64,000 bases of DNA from Sphingopyxis chilensis (GTDB lineage: Bacteria; Pseudomonadota; Alphaproteobacteria; Sphingomonadales; Sphingomonadaceae). The stretch's first letter is position 1; every line of letters begins with the position of its first letter. The notes beneath the pieces were generated by a model. It searched no databases and was not told the origin of the DNA. It saw only the letters and a program-made list of their open reading frames with translations. The stretch is from the NCBI RefSeq assembly GCF_035930445.1, contig NZ_CP142394.1:2327501-2391500 (forward strand), in the 5' to 3' direction. Positions 28,491 through 60,977 of the stretch are shown in pieces. Made by a program: the position numbers and the translations under genes.

Positions 28491-28560
28491 GTCATTGCGA
28501 GCGCAGCGAAGCACTCTCCCGTTCGATAGCGGGAGAGTGCTTCGCTGCGCTCGCAATGAC
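28491..28560. repeat. Perfect 31-bp inverted repeat of the GTCATTGCGAGCG REP family
   Basis: Both arms are 31 of 31 complementary around an 8-nt loop (TTCGATAG). It lies between convergent ihfB and the ABC permease, where it may end transcription from both sides. Unlike other copies in the window it carries GCACTCTCCCG in place of GCAATCCAG. Confidence 0.93.
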
Positions 28561-32494: not shown

Positions 32495-32575
32495 GTCATT
32501 GCGAGGAGCGAAGCGACGCGGCAATCCAGAGTCGCGCAAGGCCGCCCTGGATTGCTTCGCTACGCTCGCAATGAC
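32495..32575. repeat. REP palindrome, GTCATTGCGAGCG family
   Basis: GTCATTGCGAGGAGCGAAGC on the left and inverted CTGGATTGCTTCGCTACGCTC on the right surround about 16 bp. It is the same family as 28491-28560, 53872-54030 and 59181-59264. Confidence 0.88.
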
Positions 32576-52742: not shown

Positions 52743-53852
52743 ATGACCGAAAAGACGCCGGCGCACGCCGCCTCGACCGCCCGATCGCAGAATGAAGCGA
52801 AGTCCGCCGGCGCCCCGCCGCCCGCCTTCGGTCCCGGCCGAATCGCGGGGGCCACGCTGATCGTGCTGGCGCTGATCGGCGTCGCGCTATTGGTGATCGA
52901 GCTGACGCGTTTCTTGATGCTCGTTTTCGCGGCGATCGTGCTCGGCGCGATCTTCGACGCCATCGCGAGCTGGCTCTGCCGCAAGACGAAGATCGGCCGC
53001 GGTGTTGCACTGGCGCTGTCGGTCGCCGGGATCGTCGCGATTTTCGCGGGAGCCTTCATGCTGTTCGGGTCGCAGCTGGCGCGCGAGGTCGACACGATTC
53101 GCGAACAGATTCCGCAAGCATTGCGCGGGGTCGAGGCATTTCTCGACCGTTATGGGCTGGGGCAACGCGTGCGCGAGCTGGCCGAGGTGGGCAGCGACGA
53201 TCTTTCGCGCCTCGCATCGCAAGCCGGCGGCTACGCCCTCGCGGCGGGCAGCGGCATCGCCGATTTCGTGCTGGTGCTCGTCGCGGCGATTTTCCTCGCC
53301 AGCGATCCCGCGACCTATCGGCGCGGGCTGCTGCTCATGCTGCCCGAACGCGCCGAAGGGACGGCGGCGCTGGCGTTCGACGACGCTGCGCGCGGGCTGA
53401 AAGGCTGGATGGTCGGACAGGCGGTTTCCTCGCTCGTCGTCGCGGCGCTGACCTGGGCGGGGCTGGCGCTGCTCGGCGTGCCCGCTGCCGGGGGGCTCGG
53501 CCTGATCGCCGGGCTGCTCGACGTGATCCCGATGATCGGCCCGATCATCGCGGGCATTCCCGCGGTCCTGCTCGCCTTTACCGTATCGCCGATGACGGCG
53601 CTGTGGACGCTGATATTGTTCCTCGCGATCCAGCAGCTGCAGGGCAATTTCCTGCAGCCGATGATCCAGAAGCAGGCGGTCGACGTGCCCCCCGCAGTGC
53701 TGCTGTTCGCCGTAGTCGCGGCGGGGATCCTGTTCGGCTTCCTCGGCGTGCTGCTTGCCGCGCCGCTGACCGTGGTCGTCTATGTGCTGGTGCAGCGGGT
53801 GTATGTGAAAACGCTGCTCGGCAAGGACATCCGGATCGCAGGTGCGGATTAG
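52743..53852 (+). CDS. AI-2E transporter family (PerM/YdgG-like) membrane protein
   Basis: 369 residues, about eight helices, with the family motifs IVLGAIFDAI in helix 2, LDVIPMIGPIIAGIPAVLLAF and QLQGNFLQPMIQKQAVDVPPAVLLFAV. Members export small molecules such as autoinducer-2 or Na+; specificity cannot be told. An N-terminal 30-residue Pro/Ala extension is not conserved. It follows tRNA-Leu and is a single gene ending before a REP unit. Confidence 0.9.
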   Translation: MTEKTPAHAASTARSQNEAKSAGAPPPAFGPGRIAGATLIVLALIGVALLVIELTRFLMLVFAAIVLGAIFDAIASWLCRKTKIGRGVALALSVAGIVAIFAGAFMLFGSQLAREVDTIREQIPQALRGVEAFLDRYGLGQRVRELAEVGSDDLSRLASQAGGYALAAGSGIADFVLVLVAAIFLASDPATYRRGLLLMLPERAEGTAALAFDDAARGLKGWMVGQAVSSLVVAALTWAGLALLGVPAAGGLGLIAGLLDVIPMIGPIIAGIPAVLLAFTVSPMTALWTLILFLAIQQLQGNFLQPMIQKQAVDVPPAVLLFAVVAAGILFGFLGVLLAAPLTVVVYVLVQRVYVKTLLGKDIRIAGAD

Positions 53853-53871
53853 GTAGCTTTCGCCTGCTGCC

Positions 53872-54030
53872 GTCATTGCGAGCGAAGCGAAGCAATCCAG
53901 AGCGTCACTCGCTGCCATCGACTATTGTCGACCACGGATCGGCCCATTGAGGGTTGCTGGCTTCGATCAGCGCCATCTTTCCTTGCGCGGCATGGCCGCC
54001 CCTGGATTGCTTCGCTTCGCTCGCAATGAC
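53872..54030. repeat. REP unit flanking a GIY-YIG remnant
   Basis: GTCATTGCGAGCGAAGCGAAGCAATCCAG at 53872-53900 and the inverted CTGGATTGCTTCGCTTCGCTC at 54002-54030 face each other across 101 bp. That interval is largely a gene remnant. Contrast with the compact copies at 28491 and 32495, where only 8-16 bp separate the arms. Confidence 0.9.
53905..53979 (-). pseudogene. C-terminal remnant of a GIY-YIG endonuclease
   Basis: Read on the minus strand the 24 codons before a TGA give KMALIEASNPQWADPW...DGSE. The end of the GIY-YIG gene at 59269 gives KLALIEAENPLWLDLW...DGSE at the same place; more than half the residues are identical. No start or catalytic part is left. The stop codon is 4 bp from the REP arm, exactly as at the other locus. 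Confidence 0.75.
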
Positions 54031-54049
54031 GAAGTTTGGGAACTGAATT

Positions 54050-55504
54050 CTATTTCTTCAATTCCTTCGCCAGCGTCTTCGCCGTCGCCTTGCCATAGGG
54101 CGGCTTGAAGCCCGCGAGCCCGGCGACATCGAGCTTGGGCTGGCGATAGACCGCGCGCGCGTGGCTGAAGGTGCGGAAGCCGTCGACGCCGTGATAATTG
54201 CCCATCCCCGACGGCCCGACCCCGCCGAACGGCAGGTCCTCCATCGCATTGTGAAACAGCACGTCGTTGACCGTGACCCCGCCCGAGATCGTGCGCGTCA
54301 GCACACGGTCCTCCTCGCTCTTGTCCTGTCCGAAATAATAAAGCCCAAGCGGGCGGTCGTTCGCATTCACATAGTCGATCGCGTCGTCGATCGTCTTGTA
54401 GGTCTTGACCGGCAGGATCGGGCCAAAGATTTCCTCCTGCATCACCTTCATGTCGTCGGTCGGGTTGCGGACGATATGGAGCGGCATCTTGTGGCCGTTC
54501 GAGCTCGCGAAATCCTCGCCGCCCGGATTGACCTCGATCACCTCGCCGCCCTTCTCGCGCGCATCGGCAAGGTAGCTTTGCAGGCGGTCATAATTGCGCG
54601 TGTTGACGACCGACGTGTAATCGTCGTTGGCGAGTAGGGTCGGGTAGAGCGCGGTCGCGCCCTTCGTCACGCTGTCGATCACGTCGCTTTCCTGATCCTC
54701 CGCAACGAGCAGATAGTCGGGAGCGAGGCAAATCTGCCCTGCGTTCATCATCTTGCCGAGCGCGACGCGCTGACCAACGAGATCCTTGTTCGCGCTGCGC
54801 CCGATGAAGGTCGGCGACTTGCCGCCGAGCTCGAGCGTCACCGGCACCAGATTGTCCGCCGCGGCGCGCATGATGTGACGCCCGACGCTCGTCGCCCCGG
54901 TAAAGATCATATGGTCGAAGGCGAGCTTCGAGAAAGCGATGCCGACCTCGGCATCGCCGGTGAACACCGCCATTTCGCTTTCGTCGAAATAATCGGGAAC
55001 GAGCCGCGCCATCAGCGCCGACACATTTTCGGTGAATTCGCTGGGCTTGATCATCGCCCGGTTGCCCGCCGCGAGGATGCCCGCCATCGGCACGAAAACC
55101 ATGCCGACTGGGAAATTCCACGGCGCCACGATGCCGACGACGCCCTTCGGCTGAAACACCACCTCGGCCTTCGCGCCGAGCAGCCCGAGCGGAAAAGTGG
55201 GTTTGCGCTTCTCGCCCTTCGCCCAGCTCGCCATATGCTTCTTGGCGTGTTTGAGCGCGCTGACCGACGGCATGATGTCGGTCATCAGCGTCTGTTCGCG
55301 GCTACGGTGGCCAAAATCCTCGCTCACCGCCTTGGCGAAATCCTCGGCATGGTCGACAAGCATCGCGACCGCGCGGTCGATGCGATCGGTGCGGACGGCA
55401 AGGCTTTCGGGCATGGCAGCGGTGAAGCTCGCCTTCTGCGCCGCCAGAACCTGATGCATGCGCGCTGTTTCGCCGGCGATGTCCTGTGTGATCGCGGTAG
55501 CCAT
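54050..55504 (-). CDS. Coniferyl aldehyde dehydrogenase-like ALDH
   Basis: 484 residues of the NAD(P)-dependent aldehyde dehydrogenases. GIVAPWNFPVGMVFVPMAGILAAGN (nucleotide binding), FTGATSVGRHIM, the catalytic Glu in TLELGGKSP and catalytic Cys in NAGQICLAPDY are visible. The sequence FGHRSREQTLMTDIM is typical of the CalB (coniferyl-aldehyde dehydrogenase) branch; long-chain aldehydes are an alternative. It is a single gene. Confidence 0.9.
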   Translation of the reverse strand: MATAITQDIAGETARMHQVLAAQKASFTAAMPESLAVRTDRIDRAVAMLVDHAEDFAKAVSEDFGHRSREQTLMTDIMPSVSALKHAKKHMASWAKGEKRKPTFPLGLLGAKAEVVFQPKGVVGIVAPWNFPVGMVFVPMAGILAAGNRAMIKPSEFTENVSALMARLVPDYFDESEMAVFTGDAEVGIAFSKLAFDHMIFTGATSVGRHIMRAAADNLVPVTLELGGKSPTFIGRSANKDLVGQRVALGKMMNAGQICLAPDYLLVAEDQESDVIDSVTKGATALYPTLLANDDYTSVVNTRNYDRLQSYLADAREKGGEVIEVNPGGEDFASSNGHKMPLHIVRNPTDDMKVMQEEIFGPILPVKTYKTIDDAIDYVNANDRPLGLYYFGQDKSEEDRVLTRTISGGVTVNDVLFHNAMEDLPFGGVGPSGMGNYHGVDGFRTFSHARAVYRQPKLDVAGLAGFKPPYGKATAKTLAKELKK

Positions 55505-58152: not shown

Positions 58153-59151
58153 ATGCCTGATTCCACCCGCCCGAAGCGCCCCCGCGTCATCGTCACCCGC
58201 CAGTTGATGCCGCACGTCGAAGCGCGCATGGCCGAATTGTTCGATGTCGCGCTGTCGGCGAACGACCACGCCTTTACCCGCGGCGAATTGAAGGCCGCGG
58301 TCGCCGACTGCGACGTGTTCGTGCCGACCGTGACCGACGAGATCGACGCCGAAGTGATCGCCGCGGCGGGCGAGCGGCTCAAGCTGATCGCCAATTTCGG
58401 GGCAGGCGTCGATCACATCGACCTCGCCGCCGCGCGCGCGAAGGGCATCATGGTTTCGAACACGCCCGGCGTCTTCACCGAAGACACCGCCGACATGACG
58501 ATGGCCCTGATCCTCAGCGTGCCCAGACGCCTCGCGGAGGGCGAAAAGCTGATGCGGTCGGGTCAGTGGGCCGGCTGGGCGCCGAGCGCGATGCTGGGGC
58601 ACCGCGTCGGCGGCAAATTGCTCGGCATCATCGGCATGGGCCGCATCGGCCTGGCGGTCGCACGCCGCGCCCGCGCGTTCGGCCTGTCGATCCATTACCA
58701 CAACCGCCGCCGCCTTCCGCAAGCGATCGAGGAAGAATTGGGCGCCAGCTATCATGCGAGCGTCGATACGCTGCTCCGCATCAGCGACGTCGTCACGATC
58801 CACTGCCCGCACACCAATGAAACGCACGAGATGGTCAATGCCGCGCGCATCGGATCGATGAAGCCGACCGCTTATCTGATCAACACCGCGCGCGGCGAGA
58901 TTGTCGACGAAAAGGCGCTGATCGCGGCGCTCCAGACCGGCCGCATCGCCGGTGCCGGGCTCGACGTCTATACGCACGAACCCGCGGTCGATCCCGCGCT
59001 GCTCGCGCTCGACAATGTCGTGCTGCTGCCGCACCTCGGCTCGGCGACGATCGAGGGCCGCGAAGCCTCGGGCGAAAAGGTCATCGCCAACATCCGCGCC
59101 TGGTGCGACGGCCACCGCCCGCCCGACCAGGTGCTGGAGGGGTGGGCTTAA
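58153..59151 (+). CDS. D-2-hydroxyacid dehydrogenase (glyoxylate reductase type)
   Basis: 332 residues. Rossmann motif GIIGMGRIGLAVARRARAFG (about 158-177), catalytic Arg in NTARGEIVDE, Glu in DVYTHEP and His in LLPHLGSAT are present. It should reduce glyoxylate or hydroxypyruvate, or oxidise D-glycerate, with NAD(P)H. The ATG of MPDSTRPK is chosen over a long upstream frame that is antisense to the SH3 gene. Confidence 0.93.
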   Translation: MPDSTRPKRPRVIVTRQLMPHVEARMAELFDVALSANDHAFTRGELKAAVADCDVFVPTVTDEIDAEVIAAAGERLKLIANFGAGVDHIDLAAARAKGIMVSNTPGVFTEDTADMTMALILSVPRRLAEGEKLMRSGQWAGWAPSAMLGHRVGGKLLGIIGMGRIGLAVARRARAFGLSIHYHNRRRLPQAIEEELGASYHASVDTLLRISDVVTIHCPHTNETHEMVNAARIGSMKPTAYLINTARGEIVDEKALIAALQTGRIAGAGLDVYTHEPAVDPALLALDNVVLLPHLGSATIEGREASGEKVIANIRAWCDGHRPPDQVLEGWA

Positions 59152-59180
59152 GGCCTGCCGCGAAGGTCGGTTTGCTCCCG

Positions 59181-59264
59181 CTCTGGATTGCTTCGTCGCT
59201 GCGCTCCTCGCAATGACGAAGCTCAATAAAACTCCGTCATTGCGAGCGCAGCGAAGCAATCCGG
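59181..59264. repeat. REP pair next to the GIY-YIG gene
   Basis: CTGGATTGCTTCGTCGCTGC (59183 onward) and GTCATTGCGAGCGCAGCGAA (59236 onward) are inverted members of the GTCATTGCGAGCG family, separated by about 18 bp. The right arm ends 4 bp before the stop codon of the GIY-YIG gene. Confidence 0.9.
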
Positions 59265-59268
59265 AGCG

Positions 59269-59561
59269 TCACTCACTGCCATCGAGGATCGTCGGCCACA
59301 GGTCGAGCCAAAGCGGGTTCTCCGCCTCGATCAACGCAAGCTTCTTCGCCCGGCTCCCCGCCTTGATCTGTTTCTCGCGCGCAATGGCGGTTTCCATCGT
59401 CGCATGAATCTCGAACCAAACAAGGAGCTTACAGTCGTAGCGCGTCGAGAAGCCGCCGAGGCCTTCACGACGCTGCCATATCCGTTGAACAAGATGCGCT
59501 GTCACACCCGTATAGAGTGTTCCCCATTGCGCCGATTGGCGACGATATAGACCGCTGGCAA
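59269..59561 (-). pseudogene. Frameshifted GIY-YIG endonuclease gene
   Basis: Read on the minus strand, a GIY-like start (LPAVYIVANRRNG) lies in one frame and the YIG half and remainder (LYTGVTAHLVQRIW, FEIHATMETAIAREKQIKAG, LDGSE) lie in another. Two extra bases in GGGGAA explain the shift. The catalytic Arg and Glu of the GIY-YIG fold are present. With the shift the gene looks inactive, unless the frame is restored or the read has an error. A GCAATGACG fragment at 59558-59566 matches the REP end, so the gene may be bounded by REP sequence on both sides. Confidence 0.7.
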
Positions 59562-59573
59562 TGACGAGAGTTG

Positions 59574-60977
59574 CTAATCCCCCGTCAGGATCCGGTCGAC
59601 GAGCTGTTTCACCGTCGGGGTGAAGTTGTTCGAATAAAAGGGATCGGTCTTGAAGTTGAACGCGGCGTGGCCCGCGAACATCAGATTTTGCTCGACGTCG
59701 CCGCCGTGCGCGATGTCCTGGAGCGTCTTCTGGATGCAGAAGCTGCGCGGATCGGCGAGGTAGCCGGTCGTGTAATCGTCATGGTCCTTCCACGACGAAA
59801 AACCGCAATGCGACAGGCAGCCCATGCAATCGGTCTGATCCTTGCGGATCATCGCCTTGTCGGCCTCGGTCACGAACACCACCGTATTGTCGGGGGTCTT
59901 CAGCGCCTCGGTATAGCCCTCCGCGAACCAGTCGCGGGCGCGGGCGCGGTCATGCGGGGTGACCCAGAAATTCTTGCCCTTCACCCCGACGTCGAGCTGG
60001 ACGATATGATCGCCCGCTTGCTGCTTCGAATAAGGGATCTGGCGTTCCGAGCGCGCTTCGAGGTCGCGGAGGAACGGATTGCGCACCGCGCTCGAATAGA
60101 AACCGGTCGGCGAGAAGCGGTGGAGCAGCACGTCGCCGTCGTCGAGCGTGCGCAGACGGTCCTTCCACTGCTGCGGGATCGGGCTTTCCTCGGTCAGCAA
60201 CGGCCGGGTGCCGTACTGGAATACGATCTGGCCGAGTTCGGGATTGTCGATCCAGTTTTCCCAGTCGCGCAGATACCAGACGCCGCCGGCCATCACGATC
60301 GGCACATCGTCCGCGATACCCTCGGCGCGCATCGTCTCGCGCACCGCGGCGACGCGCGGATACGGGTCCTGCGGCACCAGCGGATCTTCGGCGTTCGACA
60401 GGCCGTTATGGCCGCCGGCAAGCCAGGGATCTTCATACACCACGGCGCCGAGCAGGTGCGGGACCTTGCTGTAAGCGCGCTTCCACAATGCGCGGAAGGC
60501 GCGCGCCGAGCTGATGATCGGCAGGTAGAGGACATTGTGCCGCGCGGCGATTTCGCTCAGTTTATACGGCATGCCGGCGCCGCAGGTCACGCCCGCGACC
60601 AGGCCCTTCGTCCGTTCGAGCACGCCTTCGAGGATCTGCTGCGCGCCGCCCATTTCCCAGAGCACGTTGATGTTGATCGCACCCTTGCCGCCCGACACGT
60701 CATAGGCGCGCTTGACCTGCGCGACCGCGCCCTCGATCCCGTACTGGATCAGTTCCTCGTGCCGCTCCTTGCGCGTGAGCGCGCGGTAAATCTGCGGAAT
60801 GATCTTGCCCTCGGCGTCGTAACTGTCGGCATTGACCGCCGAAACGGTGCCGATGCCGCCCGCCGCGGCCCACGCGCCGCTCGACATATGGTTGGTCGCC
60901 GACACGCCCTTGCCGCCTTCGACAAGCGGCCAGACTTCGCGCCCGCCATAAAGGATGGGCTTCAAACCTTTGAACAC
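59574..60977 (-). CDS. Nitronate monooxygenase-like flavoprotein
   Basis: 467 residues. The FMN-binding TIM barrel is visible: VSATNHMSSGAWAAAGGIGTVSAV near the N-terminus, VTCGAGMPYKLSEIA, GGHNGL and IVMAGGVWY. Nitronate monooxygenases oxidise alkyl nitronates; related enzymes act on other substrates. The C-terminal part has a CMGCLSHCGF segment that is unusual for the family and could bind a metal or iron-sulphur cluster. Length exceeds the usual 320-360 residues because of this extension. Confidence 0.82.
   Translation of the reverse strand: MFKGLKPILYGGREVWPLVEGGKGVSATNHMSSGAWAAAGGIGTVSAVNADSYDAEGKIIPQIYRALTRKERHEELIQYGIEGAVAQVKRAYDVSGGKGAININVLWEMGGAQQILEGVLERTKGLVAGVTCGAGMPYKLSEIAARHNVLYLPIISSARAFRALWKRAYSKVPHLLGAVVYEDPWLAGGHNGLSNAEDPLVPQDPYPRVAAVRETMRAEGIADDVPIVMAGGVWYLRDWENWIDNPELGQIVFQYGTRPLLTEESPIPQQWKDRLRTLDDGDVLLHRFSPTGFYSSAVRNPFLRDLEARSERQIPYSKQQAGDHIVQLDVGVKGKNFWVTPHDRARARDWFAEGYTEALKTPDNTVVFVTEADKAMIRKDQTDCMGCLSHCGFSSWKDHDDYTTGYLADPRSFCIQKTLQDIAHGGDVEQNLMFAGHAAFNFKTDPFYSNNFTPTVKQLVDRILTGD

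Follow-up and report, generated by a model that had tools for sequence, protein, structure and literature searches.

A family of small GIY-YIG proteins, represented in the window (the whole 64,000-nucleotide stretch of Sphingopyxis chilensis DNA analysed here) by a broken gene, is encoded between inverted copies of CGTC-type REPs, and the type of REP follows the subfamily of the protein. We propose, with a probability of roughly 0.6, that this family is the dedicated REP-associated nuclease of CGTC REPs, the counterpart of the RAYTs that accompany GTAG REPs. Since enzyme lineage and repeat type go together, the family is a strong candidate for the enzyme that CGTC REPs have lacked, and thereby for the agent behind a large class of bacterial repeats. 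The proposal is built on the architecture itself, its excess over controls, the co-variation of protein and REP, the number of cognate REP copies, selection on the gene, invariant residues and the resemblance of the fold to known nucleases.

The available part of Di Nocera 2013 (PMC3733652) describes CGTC REPs as having a CGTC tag, an 8-9 bp stem, a 4-5 nt loop and a CCA tail and as forming mostly head-to-head dimers. REPs of this kind are found in several phyla, the dRS3 repeats of Neisseria included, and in 2013 their partner enzyme was missing. In that text the elements seemingly have no dedicated transposase, and CGTC REPs flank neither RAYT nor IS200 genes; its set of intragenic REPs omitted those within hypothetical proteins of fewer than 120 aa. 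The REPs described below share the tag, the CCA tail and the mostly head-to-head dimers, and those of types B, C and A. lipoferum also the stem-loop; the difference is that the paper discusses RAYT and IS200 genes, whereas the partner we propose is a GIY-YIG protein of about 95-110 aa. Our search of the open-licence literature, with subscription papers and preprints outside its scope, found no paper that, judged by its listing, links GIY-YIG proteins to REPs (REPIN, RAYT, CGTC or dRS3), and in a term search of the RepRanger paper of 2025 (PMC12306157) the words GIY, nuclease and transposase were absent.

The gene-bearing element of the window has the following parts:

59183-59218, minus strand: long-form CGTC REP (GTCATTGCGAGGAG...GCAATCCAG), the outer neighbour of the nuclease element
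59235-59264, plus strand: REP adjoining the 3' end of the nuclease gene, followed by an AGCG spacer and then the stop codon
59269-59556, minus strand: decayed GIY-YIG nuclease gene of subfamily A, recognised by a PF01541 match above cut-off and by its translation
59554-59566, minus strand: remainder of a second REP, recognised by comparison with locus L065 of strain G003 and shortened by a 45-bp deletion

An earlier note on this DNA had described a frameshifted GIY-YIG gene with a REP ending 4 bp before its stop codon, and both points hold: the PF01541 match exceeds the curated Pfam cut-off, and the REP at 59235-59264 is separated by AGCG from the stop codon at 59271-59269 on the minus strand. 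The ‘REP fragment’ that the note placed at the other end of the gene is what remains of the second REP, which is complete at L065 in the same-species strain G003; relative to G003, the window strain is missing 45 bp between two GCTGGCAA repeats. The frame break lies close to the 5' end of the gene, the start region of which is deleted. The same break is present in G003, so a sequencing error is an unlikely source and was rejected, and the check by resequencing that had been suggested is largely answered by this second strain. Together, the shared break and the further 45-bp loss in the window strain indicate that the gene is decaying in S. chilensis. Rfam gave no match at gathering scores between positions 53000 and 60500 of the window, and NCBIfam none for the four proteins searched.

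We also found a second, internally deleted relative of this element in the window, as well as REPINs (inverted REP pairs) that have no gene:

53871-53900, plus strand: REP of the second element, by sequence match
53901-54001, minus strand: relic of a GIY-YIG gene, its start region joined to its C-terminal end, by alignment to the 59269 copy
54002-54031, minus strand: inverted partner REP of the second element, by sequence match
28491-28560, strand not assigned: REPIN without a gene, by repeat search
32495-32575, strand not assigned: 81-bp REPIN without a gene, by repeat search

The relic is identical to the 59269 element in 74 of 101 aligned columns and ends in ...DGSE*; as had been claimed, it has the identical junction of REP (53871-53900), AGCG (53901-53904) and stop (from 53905). 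From the decayed gene and this relic, S. chilensis most likely once had two copies of the gene. For 19 of the 30 loci fetched for the 53871-54031 site, both neighbouring genes could be aligned, and two of these 19 are from S. chilensis; none of the 17 other comparable genomes has GIY-YIG sequence there, and short gaps or REPINs of several types occupy the site instead. The inner edges of the REPIN at 32495-32575 (CCAGAG...CCGCCCTGG) match those of the gene-bearing element. REPINs with CTCCAGC inner edges also occur in this genome, and a gene-bearing element with CTCCAGC edges is present in G003 and absent from that site in G000. Both intergenic regions, 53852-54050 and 59150-59574 of the window, resemble hot spots at the ends of genes: the REPIN type there differs from one species of the genus to another.

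Matches to a 13-mer of the REP with up to two mismatches number 15 in the window against 5.8 expected, a count reached by 0 of 100 shuffles, and the 3.95-Mb genome contains 68 exact copies, the reversed-pattern control giving 0. Type A REPs persist (53 copies of a 25-mer) while the subfamily A gene has decayed. A RAYT as the partner of these REPs was rejected for this genome, in which PF01797 (Y1/RAYT) has 0 matches, and the GIY-YIG gene is taken as the partner; PF01797 matches were found in 15 of 80 genus genomes.

The link between REPs and GIY-YIG genes is general beyond the window. Our genus set comprised 92 PF01541 hits from the S. chilensis genome and its genus, a non-random sample made up of the best-scoring among the matches listed over 80 genomes (two, with UvrC excluded, plus 30 and a further 60), and a family ORF was found in 91. 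We scored a flanking pair when an inverted repeat scoring at least 17 linked the 200 bp before the domain to the 200 bp around the stop. Such a REP pair brackets the ORF at 58 of these 91 best-scoring loci and at 0 of 30 ParE toxin control loci (top score 11), four of which are clipped by contig ends, so that the gene position is wrong in those four. By clade, the pair is present at 54 of 60 clade I and 4 of 31 clade II loci, a division that uses protein features only but was drawn with the flank scores already known; matched-length control segments from the same genus loci, drawn from the 31 with long enough flanks, gave 0 of 620. Our wide sample combined 80 named loci (the best 80 of 580 confirmed, with titles spanning several phyla) with 30 from a phylum sample in which 170 of 299 genomes have a match. 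Here the pair was found in 72 of 107 loci against 16 of 2180 matched segments; a first run had given 73 of 110, before one duplicate and two loci with short flanks were dropped. The rows dropped were L002 (UvrC), L059 (in which the HMM found no ORF), L281 (a duplicate of L001) and one genus locus with short flanks. Among the 54 clade I elements, the REP in front ends a median of 33.5 bp before the GIY domain, and in 35 the other REP overlaps the stop codon or is no more than 10 bp away from it.

The test proposed in the earlier note, whether REPs are over-represented near the stop codons of homologous genes, is strongly positive in genus and wide sample alike. That note had also named homologues without adjacent REPs as grounds for refutation: these do exist, a scored pair being missing at 6 of 60 clade I genus loci, 35 of 107 wide-sample loci and most of clade II, but the excess remains. 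Its suggestion that the nuclease may be part of the repeat unit is supported by the recurrent REP-ORF-REP arrangement with cognate REP types.

Protein and repeat also vary together. At non-homologous sites, the more alike two proteins are, the more alike their REPs tend to be (130 REP-flanked elements, r 0.32), a correlation that 0 of 2000 permutations reached (highest 0.13). When REPs were shuffled within genomes only, the observed r of 0.354 was reached by 0 of 5000 shuffles, the best coming close at 0.332 in a comparison that left only 27 of 58 genus elements, spread over 10 genomes, free to move. The copy number of each of two REP types follows its own nuclease subfamily and not detectably the other. 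REP A has a median of 71 copies in the 13 genomes with an intact A gene versus 8 in the 63 without (p 2.5e-6, AUC 0.92, kinship ignored; four genomes with a degraded A gene left out); REP C has 15.5 copies in the 12 genomes with a C gene, called at 64% identity or more, versus 1 in the other 68 (p 1.1e-5, AUC 0.89, kinship again ignored). At a 78% threshold the REP C values are 11 (7 genomes) versus 1 (73 genomes), with p 0.004, or 0.018 after subtraction of the two flanking copies. Crossed pairs of gene and REP show only weak relations (AUC 0.59 with p 0.34, AUC 0.63 with p 0.12), and the two REP counts correlate across genomes (Spearman 0.39). Some genomes are rich in a REP type and have no matching gene at the threshold used, such as G012 (32), G017 (40) and G065 (27) for REP C and G062 (79) for REP A. 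Subfamily A homologues that are at least 77% identical over residues 1-99 and have no internal stop occur in 13 other genus genomes; broken or partial copies are found in G000, G003, G006 and G051.

Clade I genes are under purifying selection (median dN/dS 0.095 over 21 disjoint pairs), and the catalytic-type residues Y10, Y21, H35, E68 and N87 are invariant in 102 sequences. The predicted structure (pLDDT 92.5) has UPF0213, SLX1 and UvrC entries as its top-ranked fold matches, with no Foldseek match at E 0.001 or better and Z always below 7; UPF0213 entries are also matched by sequence profile (E 2e-10 and 9e-8). By domain, catalytic-type residues and predicted fold, the REP-linked proteins belong to the GIY-YIG superfamily and are putative nucleases. 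They share fold and catalytic-type residues with UPF0213, YhbQ-YazA and SLX1, and their size with UPF0213; what distinguishes the clade found here is its REP linkage. YhbQ and YazA are named as Slx1 family members in the available text of PMC7017083.

How closely do the REPs themselves resemble published CGTC REPs? Types B and C and the A. lipoferum REPs have the CGTC/TGTC tag and the CCA tail, predicted stems of 7-8 bp and loops of 4-5 nt (z about -4.5), and type D (GTGATCCCCGG...) folds well, as they do. The type A REP of the window has tag and tail with a 5-bp outer stem only, and its single strand folds no better than shuffles. The bare CGTCAY hexamer was dropped as a marker, being too common to inform. 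A match was found in 35 plasmid-collection records, four of which were read, chosen because the CGTC-REP paper names their organism or genus. In three of them (A. lipoferum, S. meliloti, N. aromaticivorans) the gene has REP units on either side. In N. gonorrhoeae the gene lies inside a cluster of 10 repeats in 2.7 kb, which we take to be dRS3-like from their motif. The N. gonorrhoeae records NZ_CP119140.1 and NZ_CP119142.1 are of chromosome size (2.17 Mb) and filed as plasmids.

Clade II proteins, of the YYTGHTD type, keep different company. Within 200 bp of these genes, CCGTTCG-type repeats are present upstream in 20 of 31 cases and downstream in 21 of 31. Control windows have them in 10 of 374 cases, and clade I genes in 0 of 60 upstream and 1 of 60 downstream. 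Outside the genus, inverted repeats stand beside two of the three clade II genes read. The CCGTTCG repeats may form a repeat superfamily apart, served by a GIY-YIG nuclease of its own. At clade II loci L034-L170, CCGTTCG-type repeats occur without the CGTC tag.

We envisage that each subfamily would be a vertically inherited gene flanked on both sides by its own REP type in inverted orientation, with gene-less REPINs of the cognate type dispersed elsewhere in the genome. The cognate REP would fold into a hairpin or cruciform with a CGTC tag, an 8-9 bp stem, a 4-5 nt loop and a CCAG tail, probably while the DNA is briefly single-stranded. The enzyme would recognise this structure and nick it at the base, much as SLX1, to which it is structurally related, cleaves branched DNA; when the nicked DNA is repaired or replicated, REPINs could be spread or reshuffled. 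GIY-YIG chemistry is hydrolysis, so the joining step would differ from that of HUH enzymes. REP binding, cleavage and mobilisation would all fall to the GIY-YIG enzyme here, and we put at about even odds the fuller claim that it makes and moves CGTC REPs, with the second clade doing likewise for CCGTTCG repeats. Hairpin recognition and nicking are modelled on RAYTs as presented in the available text of Bertels and Rainey 2011 (PMC3116915). With the REPIN-RAYT system as described there, ours shares a nuclease gene next to the REP type that belongs to it, REPs arranged as inverted pairs, several distinct gene/REP pairs per genome, and a gene that is mostly vertical and apparently not self-mobile; it differs in pairing GIY-YIG with CGTC in place of a Y1 HUH tyrosine transposase with GTAG.

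Several other readings need to be weighed. The gene could be a free-standing homing endonuclease, its ORF having invaded a REPIN spacer so that it cuts gene-less REPINs and is copied in by repair. The ORF does sit in a REPIN-like frame with inner edges matching those of gene-less REPINs, GIY-YIG is a homing nuclease class with I-TevI among the fold matches, and the second, now deleted copy at 53871-54031 is found in this species and is missing from all 17 other genomes that were compared at the site. Homing would, however, be expected to leave near-identical copies at unrelated sites, and among 65 gene pairs with at least 85% DNA identity (54 loci) there is no case: 64 pairs share homologous flanks on both sides, and the remaining pair does so on a single side. 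The genes themselves, we conclude, do not hop, and active gene hopping found no support. With the family nearly absent from phage records (one weak match among 50,697), we consider homing unlikely; the I-TevI group shares the catalytic domain, but here no multi-copy spread was seen and the ORF is framed by palindromic repeats. A domesticated host enzyme that serves replication or repair by trimming or resolving the hairpins and cruciforms of REPs, with no role in their spread, would account for the strong purifying selection, the fixed sites and the SLX1-like predicted fold. Taken alone it leaves unexplained why REP sequence tracks protein subfamily, why cognate REPs are more numerous where the gene is present, and why the gene is bracketed by its own target repeats, and we regard it too as rather improbable.

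It is very unlikely that the REPs are regulatory hairpins for the gene (translational control at the 5' end, a terminator or stabiliser at the 3' end) that owe their dispersal to another cause: their positions, shortly before the GIY domain and immediately after the stop codon, would suit such a role, but genomes with the gene also have more cognate REPs at other places. Least credible of all is a passenger gene that reaches REP-rich intergenic hot spots by chance. The same intergenic sites do carry different REPIN types in different species, but the matched segments and the ParE control (the only other family tried) show such pairs rarely or never, the within-genome shuffles never reached the observed value, and the REP lies so near the stop in most clade I elements. 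Chance was rejected as the source of the association.

If the fuller claim is correct, REP-type selfish palindromes would have had two or more separate origins, each around a nuclease of unrelated chemistry (HUH in one case, GIY-YIG in another), and bacterial repeats would have a second engine of dispersal in GIY-YIG, CGTC REPs being one of two large REP superfamilies. A cognate nuclease for each repeat type would make the origin, spread and sequence specificity of CGTC REPs testable, and the GIY-YIG/CGTC system would offer an independent comparison for the REPIN-RAYT story.

The genes are mostly vertical and at fixed sites, and the window also has the diverged, deleted second copy; REPIN turnover is visible at intergenic sites. 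No clean empty/filled junction, target site or duplication was resolved in the loci compared. Between G000 and G003 we saw loss and turnover and no clean insertion; from sequence comparison, the L001 element in G003 is best read as lost, with one REP left behind. In A. lipoferum the gene lies between sufB and sufC; 11 other listed Azospirillum records (of 23 matched) gave two aligned pieces without the gene, and in the five read intergenic drift blurs the ends. S. meliloti SM11, compared over 40 kb with five records, showed three length differences at two positions (L330 gave no aligned pieces), and the one example read per position was in neither case a REPIN. Relative to SM11, S. meliloti Rm41 has a 291-bp insertion (L329, 12758-13048) that is group II intron fragment-like. 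At L084 (G053) the gene at the orthologous site passes partway into unrelated sequence, by an assembly join or a rearrangement. L315 and L316 come from two strains of one species that differ in the REP type found at a shared intergenic position (about 6187-6260 of L315).
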